Shown here: one piece after another, positions 3,001 through 47,717 of the stretch
Position numbering within the stretch: position 1 is the first letter of the stretch
Layout of the letters: each line of letters starts with the position of its first letter
Source of the DNA: Aplectana chamaeleonis
Taxonomy: Eukaryota > Nematoda > Chromadorea > Rhabditida > Cosmocercidae
Reading direction: 5' to 3'
Assembly: GCA_029168955.1 (NCBI GenBank)
Contig: JAPDOI010000157.1
Span: 62,001 to 126,000 of the forward strand
Length of the DNA: 64,000 nucleotides
Made by a program: the position numbers and the translations under genes
The notes under the pieces: generated by a model
Told to the model about the DNA's origin: nothing
The model's database searches: none
Seen by the model: the letters and a program-made list of their open reading frames with translations, nothing else

Positions 3001-6000
3001 GAATGTGCGAAACCCGAATGGGAGTGAGCAGAACGTCATATAAAGTGTGCAGGACCCCAGTGGGAGTGTGCAGGACGTCATAGAAAGTGTGCAGGACCCC
3101 AGTGGGAGTGTGCAAAACCCGAAGGGAGTGTGCAGAACGTCATAAAAAGTGTGCAGGACCCCAGTGGAAGTGTGCAGGACCTTAGTGCGAGTGAGCAGGA
3201 CCCAAATGGGAGTGTGCAGGACCCCAGTGGGAGTGTGCAGGACCCCAGTGGGAGTGTGCAGGACGTCATAGAAAATGTGCAGGACCCCAGTGAGAGTGAG
3301 CAGGACGTCATAGAAAGTGTGCAGGACCCCAGTGAGAGTGAGCAGGACGTCATAGAAAGTGTGCAGGACCCCAGTGGGAGTGAGCAGGACGTCATAGAAA
3401 GTGTGCAGGACCCCAGTGGGAGTGAGCAGGACGTCATAGAAAGTGTGCAGGACCCCAGTGGGAGTGAGCAGGACGTCATAGAAAGTGTGCAGGACCCCAG
3501 TGAGAGTGAGCAGAACGTCATAGAAAGTGTGCAGGACCCCAGTGCGAGTGAGCAGGACCCAAATGGGAGTGTGCAGGACCCCAGTGGGAGTGTGCAGGAC
3601 GTCATAGAAAGTGTGCAGGACCCCAGTGAGAGTGAGCAGGACGTCACAGAAAGTGTGCAGGACCCCAGTGAGAGTGAGCAGGACGTCATAAAAAGTGTGC
3701 AGGACCCCAGTGGGAGTGAGCAGGACGTCATAGAAAGTGTGCAGGACCCCAGTGAGAGTGAGCAGAACGTCATAGAAAGTGTGCAGGACCCCAGTGCGAG
3801 TGAGCAGGACCCAAATGGGAGTGTGCAGGACCCCAGTGGGAGTGAGCAGGACGTCATAGAAAGTGTGCAGGACCCCAGTGAGAGTGAGCAGAACGTCATA
3901 GAAAGTGTGCAGGACCCCAGTGCGAGTGAGCAGGACCCAAATGGGAGTGTGCAGGACCCCAGTGGGAGTGAGCAGGACGTCATAGAAAGTGTGCAGGACC
4001 CCAGTGGGAGTGAGCAGGACGTCATAGAAAGTGTGCAGGACCCCAGTGGGAGTGAGCAGGACGTCATAGAAAGTGTGCAGGACCCCAGTGAGAGTGAGCA
4101 GAACGTCATAGAAAGTGTGCAGGACCCCAGTGCGAGTGAGCAGGACCAAAATGGGAGTGTGCAGGACCCCAGTGGGAGTGTGCAGGACCCCAGTGGGAGT
4201 GAGCAGGACGTCATAGAAAGTGTACAAGACCCCAGTGGGAGTGAGCAGGACGTCATAGAAAGTGTGCAGGACCCAAATGGGAGTGTGCAGAACGTCGTAG
4301 AAAAAGTGCAGGACCCCAGTGGGAATGTGCAGGACCCAAATGGGAGTGTGCAGGACGTCATAGAAAGTGTGCAGGACCCCAGTGCGAGTGAGCAGGACCC
4401 AAATGGGAGTGTGCAGGACCCCAGTGGGAGTGTGCAGGACCCCAGTGAGAGTGAGCAGGACGTCACAGAAAGTGTGCAGTACCCCAGTGGGAGCGAGCAG
4501 GACCCAAATGGGAGTGTGCAGGACCCCAGTGGGAGTGTGCAGGACCCCAGTGGGAGTGTGCAGGACGTCATAGAAAGTGTGCAGGACCCCAGTGGGAGTG
4601 TGCAAAACCCGAATGGGAGTGAGGAGAACGTCATATAAAGTGTGCAGGACCCCAGTGGGAGTGTGCAGAACGTCGGAGGAAGTGTGCAGGACGTCATAGA
4701 AAATGTGCAGGACCCCAGTGCGAGTGAGCAGGACCCAAATGGGAGTGTGCAGGACCCCAGTGGGACTGTGCAGGACCCCAGTGAGAGTGAGCAGGACGTC
4801 ACAGAAAGTGTGCAGTACCCCAGTGGGAGCGAGCAGGACCCAAATGGGAGTGTGCAGGACCCCAGTGGGAGTGTGCAGGACCCTAGTGGGAGTGTGCAGG
4901 ACGTCGTAGAAAGTGTGCAGGACCCCAGTGGGAGTGTGCAGGACGTCGTAGAAAAAGTGCAGGACCCCTGTGGGAGTGTGCAGGACGCCATAGAAAGTGT
5001 GCAGGACCCCAGTGGGAATGTGCAAAACCCGAATGGGAGTGAGCAGAACGTCATATAAATTGTGCAGGACCCCAGTGGGAGTGTGCAGGACGTCATAGAA
5101 AGTGTGCAGGACCCCAGTGGGAGTGTGCAAAACCCGAATGGGAGTGTGCAGAACGTCATAAAAAGTGTGCAGGACCCCAGTGGAAGTGTGCAGGACCTTA
5201 GTGCGAGTGAGCAGGACCCAAATGGGAGTGTGCAGGACCCCAGTGGGAGTGTGCAGGACGTCATAGAAAATGTGCAGGACCCCAGTGAGAGTGAGCAGGA
5301 CGTCATAGAAAGTGTGCAGGACCCCAGTGAGAGTGAGCAGGACGTCATAGAAAGTGTGCAGGACCCCAGTGGGAGTGAGCAGGACGTCATAGAAAGTGTG
5401 CAGGACCCCAGTGGGAGTGAGCAGGACGTCATAGAAAGTGTGCAGGATCCCAGTGGGAGTGAGCAGGACGTCATAGAAAATGTGCAGGACCCCAGTGAGA
5501 GTGAGCAGAACGTCATGGAAAGTGTGCAGGACCCCAGTGCGAGTGAGCAGGACCCAAATGGGAGTGTGCAGGACCCCAGTGGGAGTGTGCAGGACCCCAG
5601 TGGGAGTGTGCAGGACGTCATAGAAAGTGTGCAGGACCCCAGTGAGAGTGAGCAGGACGTCACAGAAAGTGTGCAGGACCCCAGTGAGAGTGAGCAGGAC
5701 GTCATAAAAAGTGTGCAGGACCCCAGTGGGAGTGAGCAGGACGTCATAGAAAGTGTGCAGGACCCCAGTGAGAGTGAGCAGAACGTCATAGAAAGTGTGC
5801 AGGACCCCAGTGAGAGTGAGCAGGACGTCATAGAAAGTGTGCAGGACCCCAGTGGGAGTGTGCAAAACCCGAATGGGAGTGTGCAGAACGTCATATAAAG
5901 TGTGCAGGACCCCAGTGAAAGTGAGCAGAACGTCATAGAAAGTGTGCAGGACCCCAGTGCGAGTGAGCAGGACCCAAATGGGAGTGTGCAGGACCCCAGT

Positions 6001-9000
6001 GGGAGTGAGCAGGACGTCATAGAAAGTGTGCAGGACCCCAGTGGGAGTGAGCAGGACGTCACAGAAAGTGTGCAGGACCCCAGTGAGAGTGAGCAGTACG
6101 TCATAGAAAGTGTGCAGGACCCCAGTGGGAGTGAGTAGGACGTCATAGAAAGTGTGCAGGACCCCAGTGAGAGTGAGCAGGACGTCATAGAAAGTGTGCA
6201 GAACTCCAGTGAGAGTGAGCAGGACGTCATAGAAAGTGTGCAGGACCCCAGTGGGAGTGAGCAGGACGTCATAGAAAGTGTGCAGGACCCCAGTGGGAGT
6301 GAGCAGGACGTCATAGAAAGTGTGCAGGACCCCAGTGAGAGTGAGCAGGACGTCATGGAAAGTGGGCAGGACCCCAGTGGGAGTGAGCAGGACGTCATAG
6401 AAAGTGTGCAGGACCCCAGTGGGAGTGTGCAGGACGTCATAGAAAGTGTGCAGGACCCCAGTGAGAGTGAGCAGGACGTCACAGAAAGTGTGCAGGACCC
6501 CAGTGAGAGTGAGCAGGACGTCATAAAAAGTGTGCAGGACCCCAGTGGGAGTGAGCAGGACGTCATAGAAAGTGTGCAGGACCCCAGTGAGAGTGAGCAG
6601 AACGTCATAGAAAGTGTGCACGACCCCAGTGCGAGTGAGCAGGACCCAAATGGGAGTGTGCAGGACCCCAGTGGGAGTGAGCAGGACGTCATAGAAAGTG
6701 TGCAGGACCCCAGTGGGAGTGAGCAGGACGTCATAGAAAGTGTGCAGGACCCCAGTGGGAGTGAGCAGGACGTCATAGAAAGTGTGCAGGACCCCAGTGC
6801 GAGTGAGCAGGACCAAAATGGGAGTGTGCAGGACCCCAGTGGGAGTGTGCAGGACCCCAGTGGGAGTGAGCAGGACGTCATAGAAAGTGTACAAGACCCC
6901 AGTGGGAGTGAGCAGGACGTCATAGAAAGTGTGCAGGACCCAAATGGGAGTGTGCAGAACGTCGTAGAAAAAGTGCAGGACCCCAATGGGAGTGTGCAGG
7001 ACCCCAGTGGGAGTGTGCAGGACGTCATAGAAAGTGTGCAGGACCCCAGTGGGAGTGTGCAAAACCCGAATGGGAGTGAGCAGAACGTCATATAAAGTGT
7101 GCAGGACCCCAGTGAGAGTGAGCAGAACGTCATAGAAAGTGTGCAGGACCCCAGTGCGAGTGAGCAGGACCCAAATGGGAGTGTGCAGGACCCCAGTGGG
7201 AGTGAGCAGGACGTCATAGAAAGTGTGCAGGACCCCAGTGGGAGTGAGCAGGACGTCATAGAAAGTGTGCAGGACCCCAGTGGGAGTGAGCAGGACGTCA
7301 TAGAAAGTGTGCAAAACCTGAATGGGAGTGAGCAGAACGTCATATAAAGTGTGCAGGACCCCAGTGGGAGTGTGCAGAACGTCGGAGGAAGTGTGCAGGA
7401 CGTCATAGAAAATGTGCAGGACCCCAGTGCGAGTGAGCAGGACCCAAATGGGAGTGTGCAGGACCCCAGTGGGAGTGTGCAGGACCAAAGTGAGAGTGAG
7501 CAGGACGTCACAGAAAGTGTGCAGTACCCCAGTGGGAGCGAGCAGGCCCCAAATGGGAGTGTGCAGGACCCCAGTGGGAGTGTGCAGGACCCTAGTGGGA
7601 GTGTGCAGGACGTCGTAGAAAGTGTGCAGGACCCCAGTGGGAGTGTGCAGGACCCAAATGGGAGTGTGCAGAACGTCGTAGAAAAAGCGCAGGACCCCAG
7701 TGGGAGTGTGCAGGACGCCATAGAAAGTGTGCAGGACCCCAGTGGAATGTGCAAACCCGAATGGGAGTGAGCAGAACGTCATATAAAGTGTGCAGGACCC
7801 CAGTGGGAGTGTGCAGGACGTCATAGAAAGTGTGCAGGACCCCAGTGGGAGTGTGCAAAACCCGAATGGGAGTGTGCAGAACGTCATAAAAGTGTACAGG
7901 ACCCCAGTGGAAGTGTGCAGGACCTTAGTGCGAGTGAGCAGGACCCAAATGGGAGTGTGCAGGACCCCAGTGGGAGTGTGCAGGACCCCAGTGGGAGTGT
8001 GCAGGACGTCATAGAAAATGTGCAGGACCCCAGTGAGAGTGAGCAGGACGTCATAGAAAGTGTGCAGGACCCCAGTGAGAGTGAGCAGGACGTCATAGAA
8101 AGTGTGCAGGACCCCAGTGGGAGTGAGCAGGACGTCATAGAAAGTGTGCAGGACCCCAGTGGGAGTGAGCAGGACGTCATAGAAAGTGTGCAGGACCCCA
8201 GTGGGAGTGAGCAGGACGTCATAGAAAGTGTGCAGGACCCCAGTGAGAGTGAGCAGAACGTCATAGAAAGTGTGCAGGACCCCAGTGCGAGTGAGCAGGA
8301 CCCAAATGGGAGTGTGCAGGACCCCAGTGGGAGTGTGCAGGACCCCAGTGGGAGTGTGCAGGACGTCATAGAAAGTGTGCAGGACCCCAGTGAGAGTGAG
8401 CAGGACGTCACAGAAAGTGTGCAGGACCCCAGTGAGAGTGAGCAGGACGTCACAGAAAGTGTGCAGGACCCCAGTGAGAGTGAGCAGGACGTCATAAAAA
8501 GTGTGCAGGACACCAGTGGGAGTGAGCAGGACGTCATAGAAAGTGTGCATGACCCCAGTGCGAGTGAGCAGGACCCAAATGGGAGTGTGCAGGACCCCAG
8601 TGGGAGTGAGCAGGACGTCATAGAAAGTGTGCAGGACCCCAGTGAGAGTGAGCAGAACGTCATAGAAAGTGTGCAGGACCCCAGTGCGAGTGAGCAGGAC
8701 CAAAATGGGAGTGTGCAGGACCCCAGTGGGAGTGTGCAGGACCCCAGTGGGAGCGAGCAGGACGTCATAGAAAGTGTACAAGACCCCAGTGGGAGTGAGC
8801 AGGACGTCATAGAAAGTGTGCAGGACCCAAATGGGAGTGTGCAGAACGTCGTAGAAAAAGTGCAGGACCCCAGTGGGAATGTGCAGGACCCAAATGGGAG
8901 TGTGCAGGACGTCATAGAAAGTGTGCAGGACCCCAGTGCGAGTGAGCAGGACCCAAATGGGAGTGTGCAGGACCCCAGTGGGAGTGTGCAGGACCCCAGT

Positions 9001-12000
9001 GAGAGTGAGCAGGACGTCACAGGAAGTGTGCAGTACCCCAGTGGGAGCGAGCAGGACCCAAATGGGAGTGTGCAGGACCCCAGTGGGAGTGTGCAGGACG
9101 TCATAGAAAGTGTGCAGGACCCCAGTGGGAGTGTGCAAAACCCGAATGGGAGTGAGCAGAACGTCATATAAAGTGTGCAGGACCCCAGTGGGAGTGTGCA
9201 GAACGTCGGAGGAAGTGTGCAGGACGTCATAGAAAATGTGCAGGACCCCAGTGCGAGTGAGCAGGACCCAAATGGGAGTGTGCAGGACCCCAGTGGGACT
9301 GTGCAGGACCCCAGTGAGAGTGAGCAGGACGTCACAGAAAGTGTGCAGTACCCCAGTGGGAGCGAGCAGGCCCCAAATGGGAGTGTGCAGGACCCCAGTG
9401 GGAGTGTGCAGGACCCTAGTGGGAGTGTGCAGGACGTCGTAGAAAGTGTGCAGGACCCCAGTGGGAGTGTGCAGGACCCAAATGGGAGTGTGCAGAACGT
9501 CGTAGAAAAAGTGCAGGACCCCAGTGGGAGTGTGCAGGACGCCATAGAAAGTGTGCAGGACCCCAGTGGGAATGTGCAAAACCCGAATGGGAGTGAGCAG
9601 AACGTCATATAAAGTGTGCAGGACCCCAGTGGGAGTGTGCAGGACGTCATAGAAAGTGTGCAGGACCCCAGTGGGAGTGTGCAAAACCCGAATGGGAGTG
9701 TGCAGAACGTCATAAAAAGTGTACAGGACCCCAGTGGAAGTGTGCAGGACCTTAGTGCGAGTGAGCAGGACCCAAATGGGAGTGTGCAGGACCCCAGTGG
9801 GAGTGTGCAGGACCCCAGTGGGAGTGTGCAGGACGTCATAGAAAATGTGCAGGACCCCAGTGAGAGTGAGCAGGACGTCATAGAAAGTGTGCAGGACCCC
9901 AGTGAGAGTGAGCAGGACGTCATAGAAAGTGTGCAGGACCCCAGTGGGAGTGAGCAGGACGTCATAGAAAGTGTGCAGGACCCCAGTGGGAGTGAGCAGG
10001 ACGTCATAGAAAGTGTGCAGGACCCCAGTGGGAGTGAGCAGGACGTCATAGAAAGTGTGCAGGACCCCAGTGAGAGTGAGCAGAACGTCATATAAAGTGT
10101 GCAGGACCCCAGTGCGAGTGAGCAGGACCCAAATGGGAGTGTGCAGGACCCCAGTGGGAGTGTGCAGGACCCCAGTGGGAGTGTGCAGGACGTCATAGAA
10201 AGTGTGCAGGACCCCAGTGAGAGTGAGCAGGACGTCACAGAAAGTGTGCAGGACCCCAGTGAGAGTGAGCAGGACGTCATAAAAAGTGTGCAGGACCCCA
10301 GTGGGAGTGAGCAGGACGTCATAGAAAGTGTGCAGGACACCAGTGAGAGTGAGCAGAACGTCATAGAAAGTGTGCAGGACCCCAGTGCGAGTGAGCAGGA
10401 CCCAAATGGGAGTGTGCAGGACCCCAGTGGGAGTGAGCAGGACGTCATAGAAAGTGTGCAGGACCCCAGTGAGAGTGAGCAGAACGTCATAGAAAGTGTG
10501 CAGGACCCCAGTGCGAGTGAGCAGGACCCAAATGGGAGTGTGCAGGACCCCAGTGGGAGTGAGCAGGACGTCATAGAAAGTGTGCAGGACCCCAGTGGGA
10601 GTGAGCAGGACGTCATAGAAAGTGTGCAGGACCCCAGTGGGAGTGAGCAGGACGTCATAGAAAGTGTGCAGGACCCCAGTGAGAGTGAGCAGAACGTCAT
10701 AGAAAGTGTGCAGGACCCCAGTGCGAGTGAGCAGGACCAAAATGGGAGTGTGCAGGACCCCAGTGGGAGTGTGCAGGACCCCAGTGGGAGTGAGCAGGAC
10801 GTCATAGAAAGTGTACAAGACCCCAGTGGGAGTGAGCAGGACGTCATAGAAAGTGTGCAGGACCCAAATGGGAGTGTGCAGAACGTCGTAGAAAAAGTGC
10901 AGGACCCCAGTGGGAATGTGCAGGACCCAAATGGGAGTGTGCAGGACGTCATAGAAAGTGTGCAGGACCCCAGTGCGAGTGAGCAGGACCCAAATGGGAG
11001 TGTGCAGGACCCCAGTGGGAGTGTGCAGGACCCCAGTGAGAGTGAGCAGGACGTCACAGGAAGTGTGCAGTACCCCAGTGGGAGCGAGCAGGACCCAAAT
11101 GGGAGTGTTCAGGACCCCAGTGGGAGTGTGCAGGACCCCAGTGGGAGTGTGCAGGACGTCATAGAAAGTGTGCAGGACCCCAGTGGGAGTGTGCAAAACC
11201 CGAATGGGAGTGAGCAGAACGTCATATAAAGTGTGCAGGACCCCAGTGGGAGTGTGCAGAACGTCGGAGGAAGTGTGCAGGACGTCATAGAAAATGTGCA
11301 GGACCCCAGTGCGAGTGAGCAGGACCCAAATGGGAGTGTGCAGGACCCCAGTGGGACTGTGCAGGACCCCAGTGAGTGAGCAGGACGTCACAGAAAGTGT
11401 GCAGTACCCCAGTGGGAGCGAGCAGGCCCCAAATGGGAGTGTGCAGGACCCCAGTGGGAGTGTGCAGGACCCTAGTGGGAGTGTGCAGGACGTCGTAGAA
11501 AGTGTGCAGGACCCCAGTGGGAGTGTGCAGGATCCAAAAGCGAGTGTGCAGAACGTCGTAGAGGAAGTGCAGGAACCCAGTGGGAGTGTGCAGAACGTCA
11601 TAGAAGGTGTGCAGGACCCCAGTGGGAGTGTGCAAAACCCGCATGGGAGTGAGCAGAACGTCATATAAATTGTGCAGGACCCCAGTGGGAGTGTGCAGGA
11701 CGTCATAGAAAGTGTGCAGGACCCCAGTGGGAGTGTGCAAAACCCGAATGGGAGTGTGCAGAACGTCATAAAAAGTGTGCAGGACCCCAGTGGAAGTGTG
11801 CAGGACCTTAGTGCGAGTGAGCAGGACCCAAATGGGAGTGTGCAGGACCCCAGTGGGAGTGTGCAGGACCCCAGTGGGAGTGTGCAGGACGTCATAGAAA
11901 ATGTGCAGGACCCCAGTGAGAGTGAGCAGGACGTCATAGAAAGTGTGCAGGACCCCAGTGAGAGTGAGCAGGACGTCATAGAAAGTGTGCAGGACCCCAG

Positions 12001-14215
12001 TGGGAGTGAGCAGGACGTCATAGAAAGTGTGCAGGACCCCAGTGGGAGTGAGCAGGACGTCATAGAAAGTGTGCAGGACCCCAGTGGGAGTGAGCAGGAC
12101 GTCATAGAAAGTGTGCAGGACCCCAGTGAGAGTGAGCAGAACGTCATAGAAAGTGTGCAGGACCCCAGTGCGAGTGAGCAGGACCCAAATGGGAGTGTGT
12201 AGGACCCCAGTGGGAGTGTGCAGGACCCCAGTGGGAGTGTGCAGGACGTCATAGAAAGTGTGCAGGACCCCAGTGAGAGTGAGCAGGACGTCACAGAAAG
12301 TGTGCAGGACCCCAGTGAGAGTGAGCAGGACGTCATAAAAGTGTGCAGGACCCCGGTGGGAGTGAGCAGGACGTCATAGAAAGTGTGCAGGACCCCAGTG
12401 AGAGTGAGCAGAACGTCATAGAAAGTGTGCAGGACCCCAGTGCGAGTGAGCAGGACCCAAATGGGAGTGTGCAGGACCCCAGTGGGAGTGAGCAGGACGT
12501 CATAGAAAGTGTGCAGGACCCCAGTGGGAGTGAGCAGGACGTCATAGAAAGTGTGCAGGACCCCAGTGGGAGTGAGCAGGACGTCATAGAAAGTGTGCAG
12601 GACCCCAGTGAGAGTGAGCAGAACGTCATAGAAAGTGTGCAGGACCCCAGTGCGAGTGAGCAGGACCAAAATGGGAGTGTGCAGGACCCCAGTGGGAGTG
12701 AGCAGGACGTCATAGAAAGTGTACAGGACCCCAGTGGGAGTGAGCAGGACGTCATAGAAAGTGTGCAGGACCCAAATGGGAGTGTGCAGAACGTCGTAGA
12801 AAAAGTGCAGGACCCCAGTGGGAATGTGCAGGACCCAAATGGGAGTGTGCAGGACGTCATAGAAAGTGTGCAGGACCCCAGTGCGAGTGAGCAGGACCCA
12901 AATGGGAGTGTGCAGGACCCCAGTGGGAGTGTGCAGGACCCCAGTGAGAGTGAGCAGGACGTCACAGAAAGTGTGCAGTACCCCAGTGGGAGCGAGCAGG
13001 ACCCAAATGGGAGTGTGCAGGACCCCAGTGGGAGTGTGCAGGACCCTAGTGGGAGTGTGCAGGACGTCGTAGAAAGTGTGCAGGACCCCAGTGGGAGTGT
13101 GCAGGACCCAAATGGGAGTGTGCAGAACGTCGTAGAAAAAGTGCAGGACCCCAGTGGGAGTGTGCAGGACGTCATAGAAAGTGTGCAGGACCCCAGTGGG
13201 AGTGTGCAAAACCCGAATGGGAGTGAGCAGAACGTCATATAAAGTGTGCAGGACCCCAGTGGGAGTGTGCAGAACGTCGGAGGAAGTGTGCAGGACGTCA
13301 TAGAAAGTGTGCGGGACCCCAGTGCGAGTGAGCAGGACCCAAATGGGAGTGTGCAGGACCCCAGTGGGAGTGTGCAGGACCCCAGTGAGAGTGAGCAGGA
13401 CGTCACAGAAAGTGTGCAGTACCCCAGTGGGAGCGAGCAGGACCCAAATGGGAGTGTGCAGGACCCCAGTGGGAGTGTGGAGGACCCTAGTGGGAGTGTG
13501 CAGGACGTCGTAGAAAGTGTGCAGGACCCCAGTGGGAGTGTGCAGGACCCAAATGGGAGTGTGCAGAACGTCGTAGAAAAAGTGCAGGACCCCTGTGGGA
13601 GTGTGCAGGACGCCATAGAAAGTGTGCAGGACCCCAGTGGGAATGTGCAAAACCCGAATGGGAGTGAGCAGAACGTCATATAAAGTGTGCAGGACCCCAG
13701 TGGGAGTGTGCAGGACGTCATAGAAAGTGTGCAGGACCCCAGTGGGAGTGTGCAAAACCCGAATGGGAGTGTGCAGAACGTCATAAAAAGTGTGCAGGAC
13801 CCCAGTGGGAGTGTGCAGGACCCATATGGGAGTGTGCAGAACGTCGTAGAAAAAGTGCAGGACCCCAGTGGGAATGTGCAGGACCCAAATGAGAGTGTGC
13901 AGGACGTCATCGAAAGTGTGCAGGACCCCAGTGGGAGTGTGCAAAACCCGAATGGGAGTGTGCAGAACGTCATATAAAGTGTGCAGGATCCCAGTGGGAG
14001 TGTGCAGAGCGTCGGAGGGAGTGTGCAGGACCCCAGTGGGAGTGTGCAGGACCCCAATGGAAGTGTGCAGGACATCATAGAAAGTGCGCAGGTCCCAGTA
14101 AGGATGTACAGGACGTCATGGAATGGGTGCAATACCACAGTAGGGGTGTACAGGACGTCATAGAAAGTTCGCAGGGCCGCAGTGGAAGTGTGCAGGACGT
14201 CATGAAGGAAGTAGA
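1..14215. repeat. 21-bp minisatellite array with higher-order structure, about 675 units
   Basis: The stretch is built from 21-bp units. The main types on the plus strand are gtgcaggaccccagtgggag (+t; also with gag or gcg for ggg), gagcaggacgtcatagaaag (+t), gtgcaggacccaaatgggag (+t), and rarer types with cgtcggagg, cgtcgtag or cgccatag cores. Two-unit (42-bp) alternation is common. A marker pair, a plain unit followed by a cgtcggagg unit, recurs at 7, 2607, 4642, 7351, 9175, 11232 and 13246, giving higher-order repeats of 2600, 2035, 2709, 1824, 2057 and 2014 bp. Most of these lengths are not multiples of 21, so small indels exist. Units decay from about 13,980 to 14,215, which looks like the right edge; the left edge lies outside the window. 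I read it as a non-coding satellite, although three of the six frames are almost free of stops. Confidence 0.95.
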
Positions 14216-26964: not shown

Positions 26965-27126
26965 TTAATTAGCACCCTCTCCTTGCTCGCCAGCGTCTTG
27001 ATCATCGGCAGCCGCGTCGGAAGTCCACAACGTGAGGTTGTCCCTCAGGAGCTGCATGATTAGCGTCGAATCCTTGTAAGAGTCTTCGTTGAGGGTATCC
27101 AACTCAGCAATAGCATCATCGAACGC
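26965..27126 (-). other. 14-3-3 coding exon 5
   Basis: 53 codons and TAA after a ctattaag acceptor, beginning [17 protein letters not shown], through [12 protein letters not shown], to an acidic tail ending GEGAN. The phase is 0, compatible with either alternative exon 4. Confidence 0.95.
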
Positions 27127-30100
27127 CTTAATAGAGATAGCTGTTAAGAGCACGCCACCGATAGTTGACAAGATGAAACACCTGTTTAGCCAGTTGGCAA
27201 GCTCTATCGGGACTTGATGCAACTTCGTAGAAAAACACTGAGTAGTTCAATGCTAGGCCAAGGCGCACGGGATGAGTAGTTTCCAAGTTCTCTTTGGCAA
27301 TCTCGAGTGCTTCCGCGTAGCTGCCCTGACCCGTGCTCGCCACCGCTAGAAATTTCAAACACATCACTTCACCTGTTTCGCCAATTGACACGCCTTATCA
27401 GGGGCATTCAAAATCTCGTAGTAGAACACCGAGAAATTGAGAGCGAGGCCAAGGCGGATGGGGTGAGTGGGCTGCATCTTGTCCTTCGCGATGTCAAAAG
27501 CTTCCTGGTATGACTGCTGCGACTTCTCCACTACCGCTGTAACAAAAACAAAACGAAATTTTTACCAAGGACAATAACACTTAACAGTGACACCGTTGCT
27601 GCTCAAAATGAATTATTGCGAATACCTTATGAATATGCAAAATCTGGCCTTCGGCGGTGCTCACGAATGTGTAAAACCTTCCAGCCTTCCGGCTGAGCTG
27701 ACTACTTCAAAACACTTCCATCCCCATTGCGAAATAGAAAACAAGGTTTCACAGAAGTCAGTACTGAATTACCGCACCGTGACTGCACAAACAGCAGTCC
27801 AGCAGGCTCTCATTTACATCAACTATCTTGGTGTGGCTGCGGCCAGGCAGCTGTCGATAAACCCGCCTGACAGTGGATGTAAGTCAGTACCGTCCACCAT
27901 TATTCGGCCAGGCGCAAGAAATTGCGATCTCCTCGTACTGAGGAAATGCACTAGACGAAAAATACCGTGCGGGTACAAATTGCCACGATAGCCGTAAAAT
28001 ATAGTGTATGGTGCAATTACACAACTCACACCGGGGATCACGCCTGTAATTCCAGTGCAACGGCATTCTCAATAAATAATCACATAGGAACGGTTGTTTG
28101 GCGGTGGAAAAGGGATTGCCGGTGCAACCGCGGAAGCAAGAATAGAGAGAGATATCAGGTTGAAATCATTTGAGACCCTGGATGGACGGTGCAGCCTTCG
28201 GCTGCACCGTCAGGCAAGGGAGGTAATCCCCGGATGGAGGCTGATTTTAGTGTTCGCTGCAATTCGGAGTGGTTTAAATCATTTGAGACCCTGGATGGAC
28301 GGTGCAGCCGAAGACCGTCAGGCAAGGGAGGTAATCCCCGGGTGGAGGCTGATTTTAGTGTTGGCTACAATTCGGAGTGATTTAAATCATTTGAGACCCT
28401 GGATGGATTTGTGTAGCCTTCGGCTGCACCGTCAGGCAAGGGAGGTAATCCCCGGGTGGAGGCTGATTTTAGTGTTGGCTACAATTCAGGTGGTTTAAAT
28501 CATTTGAGACCCTGGATGGACGGTGCAGCCTTCGGCTGCACCGTCAGGCAAGGGAGGTAATCCCCGGGTGGAGGCTGATTTTAGTGTTGGCTACAATTCG
28601 GAGTGGTTTAAATCATTTGAGACCCTGGATGGACGGTGCAGCCTTCGGCTGCACCGTCAGGCAAGGGAGGTAATCCCCGGGTGGAGGCTGATTTTAGTGT
28701 TGGCTACAATTCGGAGTGGTTTAAATCATTTGAGACCCTGGATGGACGGTGCAGCCTTCGGCTGCACCGTCAGGCAAGGGAGGTAATCCCAGGTGGAGGC
28801 TGATTTTAGTGTTGGCTGCAATTCGGAGTGGTTTAAATCATTTGAAACCCTGGATGGACCGCGCAGCCTTCGGCTGCACCGGCAGGCGAGGGAGGTAATC
28901 CCCGGTGGAGGTTGATTTTAGTGTTGGCTGCGATTCGAAAAAACATTTAAAACCAAAATCGGCAAGGAAGGAAAACTTCGGGTGTGGGCCGATCTTACTG
29001 TTGGTCAAAACTCTGATTGAAGAAATGAAACCGAGCAGCCTTATAGTCAGAGTGAATAGATAACAAACGAGGTTGAAATTCTTGTCTGATTACCCAAAAT
29101 CCCTTCAATTACCAAGCCTGTACCCTTAATAACTTTCAGTCACATTTCACTGCCACTTTCATGAACATTTCTACCTGAAATTACCGCTTTCCGAAGGAGA
29201 CGTGAAAGTTTTTTCAAGATTTCCGCAGCTAATCAATAAAATAGGCGTCAATGTTACCATGGATTCTGCATCTACACCATCACACACGCCATTTTACGGC
29301 TATCGTGGCAATCGGTACCGCACGGTATTTGGAGTTTACTAGGAAATGCTACCTGCGTTTTCTAGCATGTATATTTTTTGTGTTAAAAATTTCTTGTCTG
29401 CATTGTAAATTTCGAAAACACATTTTAGCACTGGCTTGAAAACACTAAACTGTATATCTTTTTAGTTGTATGCTTTCTGTAAGGATTCATCACCACTTGT
29501 TCACTTCAAAATTCAAAACGTATTGAAAATCTTGTTGTTTCTCCAAGGGGTGGTTCCGCATGGCAGCTACGACACGGAGGCCCCCGTTACAGTTGGTGAA
29601 AATCTTGGGAGTACTTCTGATTTCGCCCTACTCCCACTCGGTTGATAATCATGCACAATTTATGACTCAAGAACGCATTCGGACGCAACGGGTGCATTTT
29701 CTTCGGCTGGGCTTGCTTGCGAAAGTTTAATATCGACCGGTGGGCTACGGACGGACTCATCAGTTGCATTTTCTGTACCCCTTTGTCCACCAATCCGGTA
29801 CATATCGACCGGTTAGGACTCGGCCAGCCCAAACCCACCTTCCAATCAAGACCGAATAAATCATCTTGTGTAGCTGTCAGTATCAGTAGGGACAAAAATC
29901 TTGTCCAGTTCGATACAGCAGAACCGCCTACGATCGAAGTGATCCCGAGTGGAAATTGAATTGCAAGAGGAGGGATAGTTCCGTTTTTGCGTACTGAAGA
30001 CAACATCTCTCAGAACCCTTCTTGAAATGGCCTGCGAGGCTACTCGCCCCCGTTAGGCTCCGTCCATAGCGGACGAAAAACGTTAAGGCATCGGAGCATC

Positions 30101-33100
30101 ATGCGCCAGCGCTCAAACGCTGGTGCATGACCCTCGACGGCTGGCGCATTCAACGTGTCCGAGGACGGCACGTGGTTAACGATGGTATCGATAATATTAA
30201 TGACAACCGTTAGGTGCCGTCCATTGCAGACGACCCAGCGCCAAGTGACGCTGGGGGTTTGTATCTTTAAACTCTGGTACCGCCGTAGTGACCTGTTGGT
30301 TTCGATCAATAACAGCAGCGGAGCGGTGGGCTTCGGTGAAATATAACTAGTGATAAGGAGGTTCCGACGAAAAAGCCACCGCTCCGCGCTGTGATAATCG
30401 AAATCAACAGGTCATTACGGCGGTACCAGAGTTTAACATTCGTTATTGATCTGACTCCCCAGCGACCACTGGGGCCGGCCTGTCGCTGACGGTGGAGTCA
30501 TAGCGGCAGTAGCGGCTGTCACCAACATTACCGATACCATCGTTAACCACGTGCCGTCCTCGGACACATTGAATGCGCCAGCCGTCGAGCGCCATGCGTC
30601 AGCGTTTCAGCGCTGGCGCATGTCGCTCCGACGCCATGAAGCTTTGCCGCTGGTCGTCTGCTATGGACGGAGCCTTACGGTCACTGTGCCTCCACCGTCA
30701 GCGACTGGCCGGCTGCAGTGGTCGCTGGGGAGTCAGATCAATAACAAATGCTGAAGATGCAAACCCCTAGCGTCACTTCGCGGTAGCTTTACGCTTGGAC
30801 GTCTATGGACGGAGCCTTAATGCGATGCGCTACGCGATTATGGATCGCGGATTGAAACCAAGGGGTGGAGGAAGATTTGAGGCATGTGACAGCCTTATGA
30901 AGCTCCTATAGCTCCGAGAGGAAAGGAATTTGAAGTTTAGGTTCGTTTTCGCACTGGCGGAAATGGAGAACGGGGGCGTGTTTTCCGTCTCCCTTTGCAA
31001 TGATCTGCTATTGTATGGCGATTTCATGACAACTCGTACCCGCCGCGATTTCAGGCGTTCCGGTGTCTGCCAAGTAAGCCCAATCGGTAGTCGGATTTCG
31101 CGCGCAATTCGAAGTCCCTAGGCCACCCACCCCTTTGCTTTCGGAAGGTAAGGAAACCGGGGGGAGGGGGTTCTTAGGTTTTGCACCGGGAAGAACACTG
31201 TTGTAACGTCACCAAGGCCTGGCGGGATTGGATTCTCCGAGAATCTCGTGAGGGTAAGAAACTGTACAAGCCCATTCTTCACACTTCTGCAAGCCTATGA
31301 TTTTGATGAAGTGCCTATAATATCCCAATCGCGACCATCCGCCGGGCTCTTTCGCTTCAAGATTTAGAACTAAGTTGCCACATGTTAGAGCATCAAACAA
31401 ACGCTCAGCAAAACTCACAGCTTCGATCTTCTCCGGATGCTACTTCAGCGAGATACCGGTAGTAGTCGCCCTTCATCTTCAAGTAGAACACCTTGGACTC
31501 TGGATTGCCAGCCTTGGGGATCAGGAATTTGTCGAGCAAGTTCTAAAGCAAAAACAGCATGTAAAAACGAGCTAAGGAAATTGTAGAACCAAAACGAAAA
31601 GCAAACGAACCAAAACGTCTTGGCAAATGTCACGGAGCTCTTTTTCGACCTTCTCGCGGTACTCTTTGGCCATCTGTTGCTTCTTCTCAGAACCCTCCGT
31701 CTTCTGTTCAATTGATGAAATGACTCTCCAGCTTGATCGGCGGGCACCAACCACGTTCTTATAGGCAACAGAAAGCAGATTTCTCTCTTCATTCGAAAGC
31801 TCCGCACCCAATTCGGTAACCTTCTTCATGGACTGCGCCATGTCATCGTATCGTTCGGCCTAAAAAGAGTACCATAACAAAAACAACGAGAGATACAACC
31901 TTAACAGAATGGATGGTCGTTCCATGGCGCCAAACAGTGAGGGCGGGCAGATCAGAGAGAAGGCCACAGCTACTGGTCAACCCCACTACGACGACGAATG
32001 ACGCTGCATAGATCCTCCATCTGATCTGCCCGCCCTCCTCTCTGTTTGGCGCCGAGAGACGACCACCCTGACAGATTGTTCTCCCAAATTCAAGCACAAC
32101 GTTTGCTAAGCTTCACTGACGTATGATCGTCCTCATCTGCTCACGCACTTAAAAACGGCAGGCGGTTTTAAACCCCTAATGCTCTTAAACACACCCCGGC
32201 CGTCTGCTTCCGTGCTCAGAGACACAGACCGCTCAGGCACTCGGGAGAACGGCCGTCGCACCATTAGCGGCCGGGGCTCCGATCAGTGAATGATATCAAA
32301 AGGTGCGCGGGCCGGTGTTCTCTACCGTAATCTGCTCATGCGAAGAAGGGCCGCGGTCTCTAAGCGGTCCACGAATCTATCCAAAACCGTTCCAAACATT
32401 CCCAGAAGTTGTTGAACCACAACCGCAACAGGGAGACCCCCACCGCCCACAACAAAGGGCTTCATCTTCATCGCCAAGGTCCGCGACGAGTACATCCTCT
32501 AAGTGGACCACGGGAACGCCCACCAGCAATCAAAAATATGCTAACCTCCGGAGTGGCTCGAAGTCCCCTTGCAGGGCTTACATCGAAATGCCGAATGAAG
32601 ACTCTGCTCGATTAAAAATAATGTGGAAGGACACAGGAGAGTTTCGCACCCACGTCAGGATTAAACCCACCCAGTGGCTCTGACCCCTTGGGAAAAATCG
32701 AGGGACTCTTCGCAACCACAAAAGCATTTAGAAAAATCTCCAGTGGGCAAAACTACGACATTTACTTAAAGACTTGCTTCGACCCCATTATGTGTTGTTC
32801 CGATGACTCGAGTGAAATGATGCGCCTTTTACGACCGGCTGCCCGCCCACGTGATAAGCACGTGATCAACTGATTCAATCAATTGATGCACTTGCGCGAG
32901 GAAGCGATCCGCGCAATTCTACCAGCCCAAAAAGTTGCGACATGTAAGCACGCGATTTGACAATTCCTAGGGCATTACTTCACCTCTTAAAGGGCTTTCA
33001 GAGTAGGTTCGCTGCGAAATTCGCTGCCACACGGATTGTACAAAACCTAGGGAGTGCTAGGTAGTACTCCGTAGCACTCCCCATCTCTTGTACAATCCCT

Positions 33101-45100: not shown

Positions 45101-46259
45101 GTATTCGGTGGCTCATTTCATGCCTTCCCCCGTTTGCCCTCCCGGGTGAACGGCCGCGAAGGTGAGAGAGGGAGAGTGCACGACAACGAGACGCTCGCCG
45201 CCGCCTGTGACGTCATCGCGCTGTCTCGGGTGCGCTCGGGTGTGAGTTCTTCGGCAACCCTGTGTTACCGTCATGTTTGAATGAAAATTTTTGTTCAGAC
45301 CAAAATCAAACACCGTCGTTCAAAGACCGGAATCGACTGACAGAAGTTATTTTGAGCGTAAACACATATACAGAAAAAAATATTGAATCGCACAAAGGAT
45401 ATGTTGAAAGATAAAACAATCAGGAGATAATCCCCGTTAATTTCTTTTCCATCATTTCTCAAGTATTCACGGCGGTAACCCTTACAACACGGTCGGTTAC
45501 TTGGAAGAGCCACCGATTGTAGCCTCAATTTTACCGAGGACCCCGGCGGACGAGTTCGGACGACTCGCCGCGGACGAGATCGGACAGCGCCGCGCGGACG
45601 AGTTCCGACGTAATCTCCTGCTTCAATGGTTAAGGAGGGGTTAGGGAAGCTAATCGATATATAACGAAAAGCGGTGAGTGAAACGGCCAATCTAAAGGGC
45701 GGAGGGAAATCGGGCTTTGGGTCCTGAAGCGATTGCCGGATTACGGTAGCCAAAATACGCCGAAGTACTACCATCAATGGCTTTAGGGCGGAGGGAAACC
45801 GGGCTTTGGGTTCTGAAGCGATTGCCGAATTACGGTAGCCGAAATACGTCGAAGTCCTACCATCAATGGCTTTAGTGCCCCCCCCCGAACAAGTTTGACA
45901 CCTCCGCATATAATCTACAAGGACGGACAGACGGGTGGGAGGAAATGTATGTGACGCAATCGGCCCAAGTTCAAATTGCGCGCGCGCGACGATCGCATTT
46001 CAGATTTCAATCAGACTGGTAGCAGATGGTGGAAACTGAGTCCCCTACGAAGTCACCAGACAAAATCGAATCTCTAAGACCATTTGCAAGAAATGCTCAG
46101 ATAATGATCATCTAATGAACGATATTCTGTCAGAAGTACATATGGACTCACACCGTATCATGAAAATCACCGACTTTTCTGAACATCAATACATCGAAAA
46201 TTTCTCACCTGCTCGGCAAGCTTTGCCCTCTGCACAAGTTCATCCTTATTATCAGCCAT
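26965..46259 (-). CDS. 14-3-3 protein, FTT-2/PAR-5-like, five coding positions with two alternative exon 4s
   Basis: 14-3-3 proteins are dimeric all-helical adaptors that bind phosphoserine/threonine motifs on kinases, FOXO/DAF-16, polarity proteins and others. Coding exons (minus strand) are: 46209-46259, 31611-31859, 31419-31542, then either 27373-27536 (4a) or 27182-27345 (4b), then 26965-27126 with TAA. All junctions have GT/AG ends and matching phase. Each isoform is 249 residues, the normal length. Ligand-groove residues are present: K51, R58, R62 and R129-Y130 (K49, R56, R60 and R127-Y128 in human zeta), and N175 and V178 in exon 4. The start [17 protein letters not shown] is the conserved dimer-interface helix, and the tail after TLWTSD is acidic, as in this family. 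Intron 1 is 14.3 kb, intron 2 is 68 nt, and intron 3 is 3.9 kb (to 4a). No frameshift or stop was seen. The protein is closer to C. elegans FTT-2 than PAR-5 (for example [11 protein letters not shown]); that is from memory. Confidence 0.96.
27182..27345 (-). other. 14-3-3 alternative exon 4b (divergent duplicate)
   Basis: 164 nt after a tttctag acceptor, with the same phases as 4a, ending CAG|GTGTTT. It encodes the same 54-residue segment, with 33 of 54 residues identical to 4a by my count. [20 protein letters not shown] replaces the 4a version, and [13 protein letters not shown] keeps N175 and V178. No stop or frameshift is present, so it looks functional. The intron to exon 5 is 55 nt, and the gap to 4a is only 27 nt. 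Confidence 0.92.
27373..27536 (-). other. 14-3-3 alternative exon 4a (canonical form)
   Basis: 164 nt after a gttacag acceptor, phase 1 in and phase 0 out, ending CAG|GTGAAG. It encodes residues 142-196, including [14 protein letters not shown], the [18 protein letters not shown] helix and [10 protein letters not shown]. This is the version that matches other animal 14-3-3 proteins most closely. Confidence 0.93.
27537..28170. other. 14-3-3 intron 3, part next to exon 4a
   Basis: No gene or repeat recognised. An open frame on the plus strand (27587-27991) has no family resemblance and lacks an ATG at its first codon. Confidence 0.4.
28171..28955. repeat. 113-bp tandem repeat with a hairpin in each unit, seven copies
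   Basis: Units start tgagaccctggatggac at 28171, 28284, 28392, 28505, 28618, 28731 and 28843 (spacings 113, 108, 113, 113, 113, 112). Further decayed sequence continues to about 29,010. Most units carry GACGGTGCAGCC-TTC-GGCTGCACCGTC, a 12-bp inverted repeat with a 3-nt loop; the copy at 28,284 has lost one arm. The array lies in 14-3-3 intron 3, some 0.6-1.5 kb upstream of exon 4a in the transcript. Confidence 0.9.
29010..30055. other. 14-3-3 intron 3, middle part
   Basis: A fragment at about 29303-29340 (cgtggcaatcggtaccg then cggtatttggagttta) matches the right arm of the MITE at 53151-53288. A 139-codon open frame on the minus strand (29587-30006) has no family I can name. Nothing else is seen. 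Confidence 0.4.
30056..30674. mobile_element. Foldback element, nearly full-length palindrome, TTA duplication
   Basis: The two halves are inverted copies around about 30,345. The ends GGCTCCGTCCATAG and CTATGGACGGAGCC are flanked by TTA (30053-30055 and 30675-30677). The inner arms share taaactctggtaccgccgta and cagcggagcggtgg with their complements. A second right-end copy, also ending ctatggacggagcctta, stops at 30816, so the element is compound. The TTA duplication suggests Harbinger-type mobilisation. Confidence 0.75.
30675..31418. other. 14-3-3 intron 3, part next to exon 3
   Basis: Up to 30816 it repeats the right end of the foldback family (cctccaccgtcagcgac, then ggacggagcctta). From there to exon 3 I see no further feature. 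Confidence 0.45.
31419..31542 (-). other. 14-3-3 coding exon 3
   Basis: 124 nt after gctttag, beginning NLLDKF, through [19 protein letters not shown], to a GTGAGTTTTG donor in phase 1. It carries R129-Y130 of the phosphate-binding groove. It is separated from exon 2 by a 68-nt intron. Confidence 0.95.
31611..31859 (-). other. 14-3-3 coding exon 2
   Basis: 83 codons after a ctttttag acceptor, beginning AERYDDMAQ. It contains the family signature around [20 protein letters not shown] and ends DICQDVL. The donor is GTTCGT, a weak match to consensus, but the join to exon 3 in phase 0 gives the expected DVL-NLLDKF. Confidence 0.95.
31914..32065. mobile_element. 152-bp foldback MITE next to 14-3-3 exon 2
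   Basis: The left arm (tggtcgttccatggcgcc, gggcgggcagatcagag) and right arm (ctgatctgcccgccctc, ggcgccgagagacgacca) are inverted copies. It ends about 55 nt from the exon 2 acceptor, so it borders the branch-point region of intron 1. Confidence 0.6.
32066..32989. other. 14-3-3 intron 1: GC-rich stretch, nothing recognised
   Basis: An open frame at 32303-32683 (126 codons, plus) is proline/serine-rich at its start and has no family I know. A nested gene cannot be excluded, but there is no independent support for one. Confidence 0.35.
32990..33147. mobile_element. MITE related to the 768-bp GGGCC element
   Basis: The left arm gggctttcagagtaggttcg and the right arm (gcggtgacgccactatgaaagcc) resemble the ends of the element at 36362-37129 (gggcctttcagagtggcgtc). 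A short palindrome around gtacaaaacctagggagtgc lies in its middle. Confidence 0.55.
33148..33848. other. 14-3-3 intron 1: unexplained structured stretch and poly-C MITE end
   Basis: Between 33300 and 33480 a GC-rich run can fold locally (for example cccttggtgagcttcaccga followed by ggg). I compared it from memory with U1, U2, U4, U5, U6 and 5S RNA and saw no match. At 33645-33730 there is a lone end of the ggtgyaaaactagttcgggg MITE family, followed by a ctcctgcttc-type repeat shared with 37660 and 41020. Confidence 0.35.
33849..34925. mobile_element. Diverged compound copy of the GGATCCGTCCATAG foldback family
   Basis: A left end at 33849, preceded by TTA, repeats the arm of the 30056 element (gacggcacgtggttaacgat is shared). 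Sequence at 34800-34915 repeats its other arm (cctccaccgtcagcgac, ggtcgctggggag). The right terminus is missing. A separate 139-bp foldback (34269-34407, ends ggcctgtgtcctcaagg / cctgaggaaacaggcc) sits inside. Confidence 0.5.
34993..35276. mobile_element. 284-bp palindromic MITE
   Basis: The arms ttttaggaattttttctcag and ctgagaaaaaattcctaaaa are perfect inverted copies. Inner parts also pair (gccgtaacggcatgctccac with its complement). The centre is at about 35,135. Confidence 0.75.
35277..35724. other. 14-3-3 intron 1: no gene; one copy of a dispersed 35-bp core
   Basis: The core ggggttattcgtgctacctaacacg near 35640 matches three degenerate copies at 21070-21390. A short direct repeat tacgcctcccagtcaaacta occurs twice at 35549-35590. 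Confidence 0.4.
36362..37129. mobile_element. 768-bp MITE with TTA duplication
   Basis: The left end GGGCCTTTCAGAGTGGCGTC pairs with the right end GACGCCACTCTAAAAGGCCC. The flanks are TTA (36359-36361) and TTA (37130-37132). Copy 2 of the host repeat has a single uninterrupted site (attTAGGTGTG) near 38600. The middle carries degenerate short repeats around gtcatccaggatttatttcg (36640-36800). Confidence 0.75.
37298..37487. mobile_element. 190-bp hAT-like MITE with 8-bp duplication
   Basis: The ends GGTGCTATGTGGGAAGGGGG and CCCCCTCCCACATAGCACC are inverted copies, continuing inward through ggacttggccacgcccattt. The flanks are AATATCGA at 37290-37297 and 37488-37495. Copy 2 of the host repeat shows the empty site aaaaatatcgaaaa near 38757. 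An 8-bp duplication is the hAT signature (established knowledge). Confidence 0.85.
37698..37913. mobile_element. 216-bp MITE with GGTGTAAAACTAGTTCGGGG ends
   Basis: The right end ccccccgaactagttttgcacc (22 nt in the genome, ending at 37913) is the inverted copy of the left. A second full copy is at 52579-52793, and single ends occur at about 33645 and 45875. Confidence 0.75.
37978..38909. repeat. Dispersed repeat, copy 2 (uninterrupted form)
   Basis: It aligns along its whole length with 35725-37635 but lacks both MITEs, so it preserves their empty sites. Confidence 0.85.
39068..40775. mobile_element. Second copy of the 190-bp hAT-like MITE, split by an insertion
   Basis: 39068-39141 is the left part (ggtgctatgtgggaaagggg onward) and 40651-40775 is the right part (ctaaatttgagcacctaccc, then cccacatagcacc). 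The break falls at the CACTAAA that is single in the intact copy (37298-37487) and duplicated here. Confidence 0.85.
39142..40650. mobile_element. 1.5-kb element with about 320-bp inverted repeats, 7-bp duplication
   Basis: The left arm starts atagaaaaacttattgacca and the right arm ends gttggccattaagttcttct. Pairing continues through cggacactcaaatccttcgt and gctcgcattggggcg to taggagtgtaagtt (39450) / aacttacactccta (40345). It is flanked by CACTAAA (39135-39141 and 40651-40657). The long arms recall foldback or Mutator-like elements, but 7 bp is not diagnostic. The core, about 39470-40340, has no coding sequence I recognise. Confidence 0.8.
40776..41714. other. 14-3-3 intron 1: repeat fragment and unassigned sequence
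   Basis: 41010-41125 has ccctcctgcttcggttgcgt followed by short tandem repeats of cgtccgaactcgtccg; the reverse form recurs at 45540-45640. A minus-strand open frame at 41426-41707 (93 codons) has no known family. Confidence 0.4.
41715..42113 (+). mobile_element. Internally deleted mariner element
   Basis: The left end CCAGATTGTTCAATAAGCTT and right end ACTTATTGAACAACCTGG are inverted copies, with ttgtcgttcg / cgaacgacaa just inside. A TA follows the right end. Between them lies the last part of a mariner transposase (41899-42033), so the element has lost most of its gene. Confidence 0.8.
41899..42033 (+). pseudogene. Mariner transposase C-terminal remnant
   Basis: 44 codons and a TAG read [19 protein letters not shown], then a segment ending [11 protein letters not shown]. 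This is the usual C-terminal part of mariner-family transposases (pattern KRFxSNEEVI..V..YF..L...G...LE.RW.KCI). The catalytic D,D(34)D region is missing. It is not functional alone. Confidence 0.8.
42114..43139. other. 14-3-3 intron 1: nothing recognised
   Basis: Apart from short direct repeats near 42235-42310 (gacggcgagggtcaacgcgc) there is no feature I can support. Confidence 0.4.
43140..45015. mobile_element. Large imperfect foldback element, about 1.9 kb
   Basis: The left arm (gcatttatatcctatcggcg, gtcatttgaattcccgcgcc, gccggcctggcgcgatgcca) and right arm (tggcatcgcgccaggccggc, gcgcgggaattcaaatgac, cgccgataggatataaatgc) are inverted copies, with weaker pairing further in. The outer limits are uncertain. 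A 29-bp direct repeat (ttttgaagaagggccctaaa) occurs twice at 44408-44461. No transposase is visible. Confidence 0.65.
45016..46208. repeat. 14-3-3 intron 1 start: repeat fragments
   Basis: 45540-45640 holds cggacgagttcggacg repeats, the reverse of 41040-41125. 45696-45873 holds two tandem copies, 89 bp apart, of agggcggagggaaa..gggctttggg, the reverse of the dispersed repeat at 35725/37978. A lone MITE end (gtgcccccccccgaacaagt) follows at 45873. The remainder has nothing I recognise. Confidence 0.5.
46209..46259 (-). other. 14-3-3 coding exon 1
   Basis: 17 codons from ATG (46257-46259) to CAG, then a GTGAGAAA donor. The phase is 0. It encodes the first helix of the family, ending AKLAEQ. 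Confidence 0.93.
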
Positions 46260-46285: not shown

Positions 46286-46299
46286 ACTGAAAAAGAAAA
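46286..46299 (-). promoter_or_regulatory. Splice or trans-splice acceptor just before the 14-3-3 start codon
   Basis: On the minus strand a TTTTTCTTTTTCAG tract ends at 46287, 27 nt upstream of the ATG. Nematode genes often receive a spliced leader at such a site, but an ordinary intron in the 5' UTR would look the same. Confidence 0.5.
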
Positions 46300-47717
46300 A
46301 TTGAGTCATTTCCGAATGAGAACAGGGAAACGCCATCTTGTGCGCAAACCAAAAAGCCGCGAAAATCTTCAAGCTGAAAGGCATCATACGCGCAGAAAAC
46401 CGTATAATACTATTGTTGTTGTGCAGCACTGCCTCCCTAGTGAACGAAAATATCAAAAGGGTCCATGAAAAACCTCCATCTGTAAAGAAGTTGGTCCGTA
46501 CCGTGTAAAATTGAATTCAAATTTCGCCCGAAAATCCCCTCAACCCTACGTTTTTGAAGCGTCAAAATTTACCAGCACGGTCTACCGGGCTCATTCATGA
46601 AATGGAGCCAGAAAAATGGTTTCTAGCACGAACGATGCCTTTAAGATATATTTCGAAACAATCATTGATGAGGACGAGAAAACGTAGGAACATGTTAGAC
46701 TGACACTGCCTTGTCAATGCTCGAATGGCAACGTCAGACTAAGAGGGGTCAATTATCGGCGAAGACGAGCGCGCACACTACTTCTACGTAAAACTCGTGA
46801 GAAACACGAAGGTGTGAAAACTTTTTATAAAGCAATTTCGATTTGAAAGAAGGCACTCATGAGAAACTTGTAAACAGTTTAACGGTGGAGTGACAAGTAA
46901 ATTTGAGGATTAGCGGCTAAATAGAGGGATCAAACGGACCAACGTCCCCGCCCCTTTGGGGCGGTCTCAGCGAGGGGCGCGCCGAGAACTGAGAGAGCGC
47001 GCACATTACGACTTGCTGAATAGCGAGATAATGTACGGGGCAACGGGGATATACTTTACAGATATAGTTTACATGCATGGTCTTCATTATAACTGCCTGT
47101 TGAATAAAAACTAAGTCGAGAACGAATAAAGTCGATACGTGGATGAATATGAGGGGCGCGGAAAGGGGCGTGCGAATAGCTTGTGCGCGAATCGATGGCT
47201 GGCCACCCGGCTGACCGTCTGCACATAAACAAGCCGCGACGCGTGTAATTAGCCGCATGCTTGTGGATCTACGCGCAGAGCGAGGATCAGGTCATCGCAG
47301 GTTACTGCCAGCTGATCGTTCTTCGGGCTCCAATCGGCCACCATCTACGCGTATCCGTGAAATTTTAAATAAATATTGAATGAGAAGTGTTCGGGATTTG
47401 CAATTTTCGGAGCTAAATCGGATATTGGGGGGGGGGGAAAAAAGTCGCACCCGCTTCAAAATTTCGCCTGCCATGGATTCCAAGCAGGGTCAAGCAATGT
47501 TGGAAATTTTCCAAAGTGGGGGGTCGCACCGCCAATTTTTTTCGATTTTAACTCAGCTACACCACAGAATGTTTCCTACACAACCACGAGCTGTTCAGAT
47601 TTGTGTGTCAACCGCTGGTGACCTAGATACTCGTCAAAATTGCAATTGTCCAAATAGCGAAAAATGGTATTTGGGGCATTCCAGTGTCATGCGCTCTGAT
47701 GGGCCGTAACTCAGTGG
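46300..47717. other. Region upstream of the 14-3-3 gene, likely promoter zone
   Basis: 46,920-47,300 is GC-richer (gtccccgcccctttggggcg, ggcgcgccgagaactgagag) than its surroundings. No TATA box or other defined element can be asserted. No other gene is recognised. Confidence 0.3.

Follow-up and report, generated by a model that had tools for sequence, protein, structure and literature searches.

An ftt-2-type 14-3-3 gene of the nematode Aplectana chamaeleonis with two, very probably mutually exclusive, versions of exon 4 and a possible splice switch at a JNK site

Background

Mutually exclusive exons (the exon 5 cluster) have been described for Drosophila 14-3-3 zeta in the accessible portions of three reports (PMC6071210, PMC4174434, PMC3923563). 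In mammals, JNK phosphorylation of Ser184/186 of 14-3-3 is reported to lead to the release of Bax (PMC8455551, accessible text). For nematodes, the available part of a hookworm paper states that Ac-FTT-2 and Ce-FTT-2 lack the JNK site at position 186 and that this site is conserved in PAR-5 (PMC2683825), and in the corresponding part of a study on Haemonchus contortus, Hc-FTT-2 and Hc-PAR-5 belong to one assembled transcript locus, i.e., Locus_4342 (PMC4741068).

In literature searches, which had most subscription journals outside their reach, we found no report of an alternative exon 4 in a nematode 14-3-3 gene. A first-pass annotation of the DNA studied here had likewise known of no such report; the searches agree with it on the literature, but databases already contain 4b proteins from many nematodes.

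Results and Discussion

Structure of the 14-3-3 gene

The window, i.e., the whole 64-kb stretch of A. chamaeleonis DNA that was analysed, holds a complete 14-3-3 gene on the minus strand, which reads from exon 1 (46259-46209) to a stop codon in exon 5 (26965; Table 1). Introns 1 and 2 measure 14,349 and 68 nt, respectively, intron 3 measures 3,882 nt to exon 4a or 4,073 nt to exon 4b, and the intron before exon 5 measures 246 nt if it follows 4a and 55 nt if it follows 4b. Exons 1, 2, 3 and 5, joined through either 4a or 4b, give 750 nt with one terminal stop and encode an intact 14-3-3 protein of 249 amino acids; both proteins matched positions 2-223 of the 223 positions of the PF00244 profile (370.6 bits for the 4a isoform and 356.2 bits for the 4b isoform; score cut-off 33.2). 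We consider it highly probable that this gene, which is of the nematode ftt-2 type, uses its two versions of exon 4 exclusively of each other. When the 64-kb window was searched with tblastn for a third alternative exon 4, only 4a and 4b were matched.

Table 1. Exons and spacer of the 14-3-3 gene (window positions; a slash in a splice junction marks the exon border)
Feature	Length (nt)	Positions	Strand	Remarks
Exon 1		46209..46259	-	codes 17 residues; donor CAG/GTGAGA; basis, tblastn match and junction
Exon 2	249	31611..31859	-	basis, junctions; PF00244 match in genome search
Exon 3	124	31419..31542	-	ends in phase 1; donor GCT/GTGAGT; PF00244 match
Exon 4a	164	27373..27536	-	residues 143-196, Ala186; PF00244 match
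4a/4b spacer	27	27346..27372	-	contains 4a donor and 4b acceptor; in-frame stops if retained
Exon 4b	164	27182..27345	-	residues 143-196, Ser186-Pro187; PF00244 match
Exon 5 (including stop codon)		26965..27126	-	acceptor TATTAAG, not CAG or TAG; PF00244 match

The acceptor of exon 5 (window 26965-27140) serves both forms; a TTAACAG lies 14 nt upstream of it, out of frame, and its use would truncate the C-terminus. At the other end of the gene, a pyrimidine run ending TTTTTCAG (window 46287-46300) precedes the start codon by 27 nt and is a candidate spliced-leader acceptor; the 5' end of A. caninum ftt-2 was cloned using an SL primer, according to the accessible text of PMC2683825. Elsewhere in the window, positions 4-14073 are occupied by a 42-bp tandem array of approx. 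335 copies with open reading frames of up to 3,670 aa; these mechanical reading frames are probably not genes, because several frames of either strand are open throughout the array.

Similarity of exons 4a and 4b

Exons 4a and 4b agree in phase (1 in, 0 out) as well as in length, have AG/GT borders (GTTACAG/CGG...CAG/GTGAAG for 4a and TTTCTAG/CGG...CAG/GTGTTT for 4b) and share 103 of 164 nt and 33 of 54 residues. Coordinates, length, phases, splice sites and the number of matching residues are thus as the first-pass annotation had them; its exon span of residues 142-196 needs a small correction, as either version encodes residues 143-196 but supplies only two bases of codon 142. Exon 1, the spacer with its in-frame stops and the change at residue 186 are additions to that annotation. 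At the first, second and third codon positions the two exons differ in 16, 13 and 32 of 54 codons, respectively, which is a pattern of protein-level constraint, and dN for the pair is 0.32-0.33 with a dS of 1.86 (LWL85) or saturated (NG86). When 61 random changes were put into 4a (162 nt), 33 or more identical residues were retained in none of 20,000 trials (mean 18, maximum 27), and the frame was still open in 11.5% of them.

Of the 22 residues with which the exon begins (helix F) 9 are kept, as compared to 24 of the last 32, which include an intact GLALN; the first-pass annotation had likewise described the LGLALN helix as kept and the helix before it as heavily changed. Its proposal that the two proteins would differ in client contacts has partial support: GLALN is the same in both, and they differ most clearly at residue 186, which is a regulatory site in mammals.

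Distribution of the exon pair in nematodes

Two protein searches with 4b gave 246 and 155 matches, of which 120 were listed from each, and species were counted from the 48 nematode rows identified among the matches listed. Among these matches, at least 38 nematode species have a 4b-type exon (P0026, identified at genus level, may be a second count of S. ratti) and at least 23 have 4a and 4b in one gene model. The groups with 4b among the matches listed comprise filariae, ascarids, oxyurids, Strongyloides, Panagrellus, Acrobeloides, Heterorhabditis, Mesorhabditis and C. angaria, as well as hookworms, other strongyles and Pristionchus. Plectus also has two exons, the second of which is intermediate, carries Ser-Pro and was classed by the script under 4a, and the rows for Trichinella, Trichuris and Soboliphyme show a single exon. 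No Meloidogyne or Globodera row occurs among the matches listed by the 4b searches; the exon of these genera is 4a-like yet has Ser-Pro (P0218, P0221, P0222). Likewise, no row named C. elegans occurs among the matches listed (120 of 155), in which five members of the C. angaria 4b cluster are not individually listed.

From these sequence comparisons, the exon pair is almost certainly real. Expression of 4b in relatives is supported indirectly, by short contigs and database names: the full-length 4b proteins P0049 and P0055 are listed on contigs of 1,510 and 1,114 bases, as expected of cDNA, and 4b proteins are named "isoform 2" in Necator and "variant 2" in Parelaphostrongylus.

Residue 186 and a possible JNK switch

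Residue 186 corresponds to residue 184 of mammalian zeta (ungapped offset, chain 1a37_A), and Ser-Pro at the position of zeta Ser184 is present only in the 4b form of this gene. Among the matches listed, 4b has Ser186-Pro187 in 38 of 38 species, and 4a, where paired with 4b, has Ala186 in 23 of 23 (the first Plectus exon counted); the 4a of Brugia and Wuchereria has Ala-Ser here instead of Ala-Pro. Structure prediction for the Necator 4b protein gives nine helices, with residue 186 in the loop that connects helix 167-182 to helix 187-205 (pLDDT blocks of 86-95 over exon 4; mean 74.3, pTM 0.70). In P0205 and P0206, two further two-exon ORFs, a first exon with Ala-Pro is likewise paired with a second one with Ser-Pro. 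The second exon of P0024, a nematode-like ORF, carries Thr-Pro.

These residues suggest a switch by splicing: JNK, unable to phosphorylate the helix G-H loop of the 4a form, could do so in the 4b form, and one 14-3-3 would thus be insensitive to JNK and the other potentially releasable by it. Exon choice would then decide whether stress signalling makes 14-3-3 drop its clients, the obvious one being DAF-16/FOXO. The JNK part of this proposal is tentative, and we rate it as appreciably short of an even chance.

A rival to the JNK part only, which comes close to an even chance, is that exon choice is real but serves mainly client preference or protein stability via helix F, Ser186 being incidental. 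The concentration of changes in helix F would fit such a role, and many single-exon 14-3-3 proteins have Ser-Pro at this position, perhaps an old state that was kept in 4b. On the sequences compared, the link between Ala186 and the presence of 4b is not strict: P0231, without a 4b, carries Ala186 in an exon that exon 5 follows immediately, C. elegans FTT-2 is reported to lack the JNK site, and among single-hit 4a-like ORFs, 10 of 24 (Globodera and Meloidogyne among them) have Ser-Pro. An incidental Ser186 is harder to reconcile with the separation of 4a from 4b by residue 186 in the nematodes examined, and with the finding that all 73 fetched two-exon proteins (36 distinct pairs, compared from exon residue 21 onward) keep Ser-Pro or Thr-Pro in at least one exon.

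Probable basis of the mutual exclusion

Inclusion of both 4a and 4b shifts the frame and leads to a stop at codon 227, skipping of both leads to a stop at codon 145, and retention of the spacer (GTGAAG...TTTCTAG) introduces stops in frame; only one exon 4 per transcript therefore gives a full protein. The shortest other intron of the gene has 55 nt. The spacer, with the 4a donor at one end and the 4b acceptor at the other, has 27 nt and is probably too short to be removed by the nematode spliceosome, and the joining of 4a to 4b would therefore be blocked sterically.

That exclusion is instead imposed by competing long-range RNA pairings between a docking site and selectors, as the accessible portions of PMC6071210 and PMC4174434 report for Drosophila 14-3-3 zeta, appears improbable here, given the shortness of the spacer as compared to the other introns. 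Comparison with shuffles covered two pairings of the spacer, neither of which rose above chance: pairing with the 200 nt preceding 4a was reached by 107 of 500 shuffles of the spacer and 77 of 500 shuffles of the target, and pairing with intron 4 by 409 and 451 of 500 shuffles. Of 74 windows of intron 3 tried as partners of the spacer, the best was not that adjoining 4a, and a search of the window for Rfam families gave 0 matches. Seven repeats of a 113-bp unit (93% matches; window 28158-28937) also lie in the intron upstream of 4a.

Spacers in other species were inferred from read-through ORFs under the assumption of the same exon borders. Frame shifts read by eye give approx. 25-28 nt in P0024, 24 nt in the Pristionchus-like P0220 and 21 nt in P0122; the other lengths are approx. 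25 nt in P0182 and P0187 (arthropod-like by motif only) and 64 nt in filarial read-through ORFs. Given the length of the filarial spacers, steric exclusion may not be the rule everywhere.

Number of 14-3-3 genes in the genome

A PF00244 search of the 1.04-Gb assembly (1,036,593,504 bases in 2,087 contigs) gave five matches, all of them exons of the gene described here, and a divergent 14-3-3 query (P0070) found the same five exons. A separate par-5-like gene, considered as a candidate, was rejected on these two genome searches. Provided that the assembly is complete, A. chamaeleonis would have no 14-3-3 proteins other than these two forms, which would do the work that is shared by FTT-2 and PAR-5 in C. 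elegans. The weakest reading, in which 4b is a decaying duplicate (a pseudo-exon) or the locus a misassembly that fused two 14-3-3 genes, an error that the first-pass annotation had considered, is barely credible and was rejected in view of the protein-level constraint between 4a and 4b, the 23 species with both exons in one model and the single locus in the assembly.

Novelty and implications

The mutually exclusive 14-3-3 zeta exons of flies and the nematode 4b protein records in databases were already known; new here are Ser186-Pro187 of 4b as opposed to Ala186 of the paired 4a, and the single 14-3-3 gene seen in this 1.04-Gb assembly. The 27-nt spacer, the proposed Ser186 switch and the link to gene number were not found in print by the searches, most subscription journals being outside their reach. 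Should a form with the JNK site be made as well, nematode studies on 14-3-3 and DAF-16 (dauer exit, larval activation, stress) may cover half of the protein, and "ftt-2" knockdowns would affect both forms. It would also be a clean case in which exon choice creates or removes one regulatory phosphosite on a hub protein.

Comparison with known systems

Like Drosophila 14-3-3 zeta (PMC6071210, PMC4174434, PMC3923563, as far as accessible), the Aplectana gene is a zeta-type 14-3-3 gene with exons of the mutually exclusive type, as the first-pass annotation had proposed; the accessible fly reports describe three exons and competing RNA structures (PMC6071210, PMC4174434), as opposed to two exons and a 27-nt spacer here. 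In two-exon models of insects, ticks and crustaceans the exon for the same part of the protein is duplicated and ends at LAKQ. Ser-Pro or Thr-Pro has been lost from the first exon (4a) in nematodes and nematode-like pairs and from the second (exon B) in 6 of 6 mite and tick rows, whereas both exons keep Ser-Pro in 6 of 7 insect and crustacean rows.

In trees of the exons, nematode 4b is recovered as one group if Plectus is excluded (bootstrap 96), and nematode 4a groups with arthropod exon A, shrimp excepted (bootstrap 98); nematode 4b and arthropod exon B were not grouped in the best trees (54 sites). For the same 54 sites, one duplication shared by nematodes and arthropods had a p-AU of 0.13-0.16 and separate duplications a p-AU of 0.03-0.06, neither value amounting to a secure rejection. 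That the switch is old within nematodes, possibly dating from the nematode-arthropod ancestor, toggles a JNK release site and replaces FTT-2/PAR-5 in single-gene worms, tuning DAF-16/FOXO release, is, taken as a whole, less likely than not.

FTT-2 of hookworms and C. elegans represents the same gene type, and the C-terminus encoded in the window is identical to those of the Ancylostoma caninum and Necator models. The absence of the JNK site stated for hookworm FTT-2 is true here of the 4a form only; the available part of PMC2683825 describes a form without the site, and the present gene also has 4b. The 5' primer R2 of that paper matches 4a in 23 of 23 bases and 4b in 17 of 23; R2 need not have excluded 4b, because all six mismatches lie in the 5' part of the primer. 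The single transcript locus of Hc-FTT-2 and Hc-PAR-5 may be what two exon-4 forms of one gene would yield; the accessible text of PMC4741068 regards them as two genes, each with a single transcript, unlike the one-gene pair of A. chamaeleonis.
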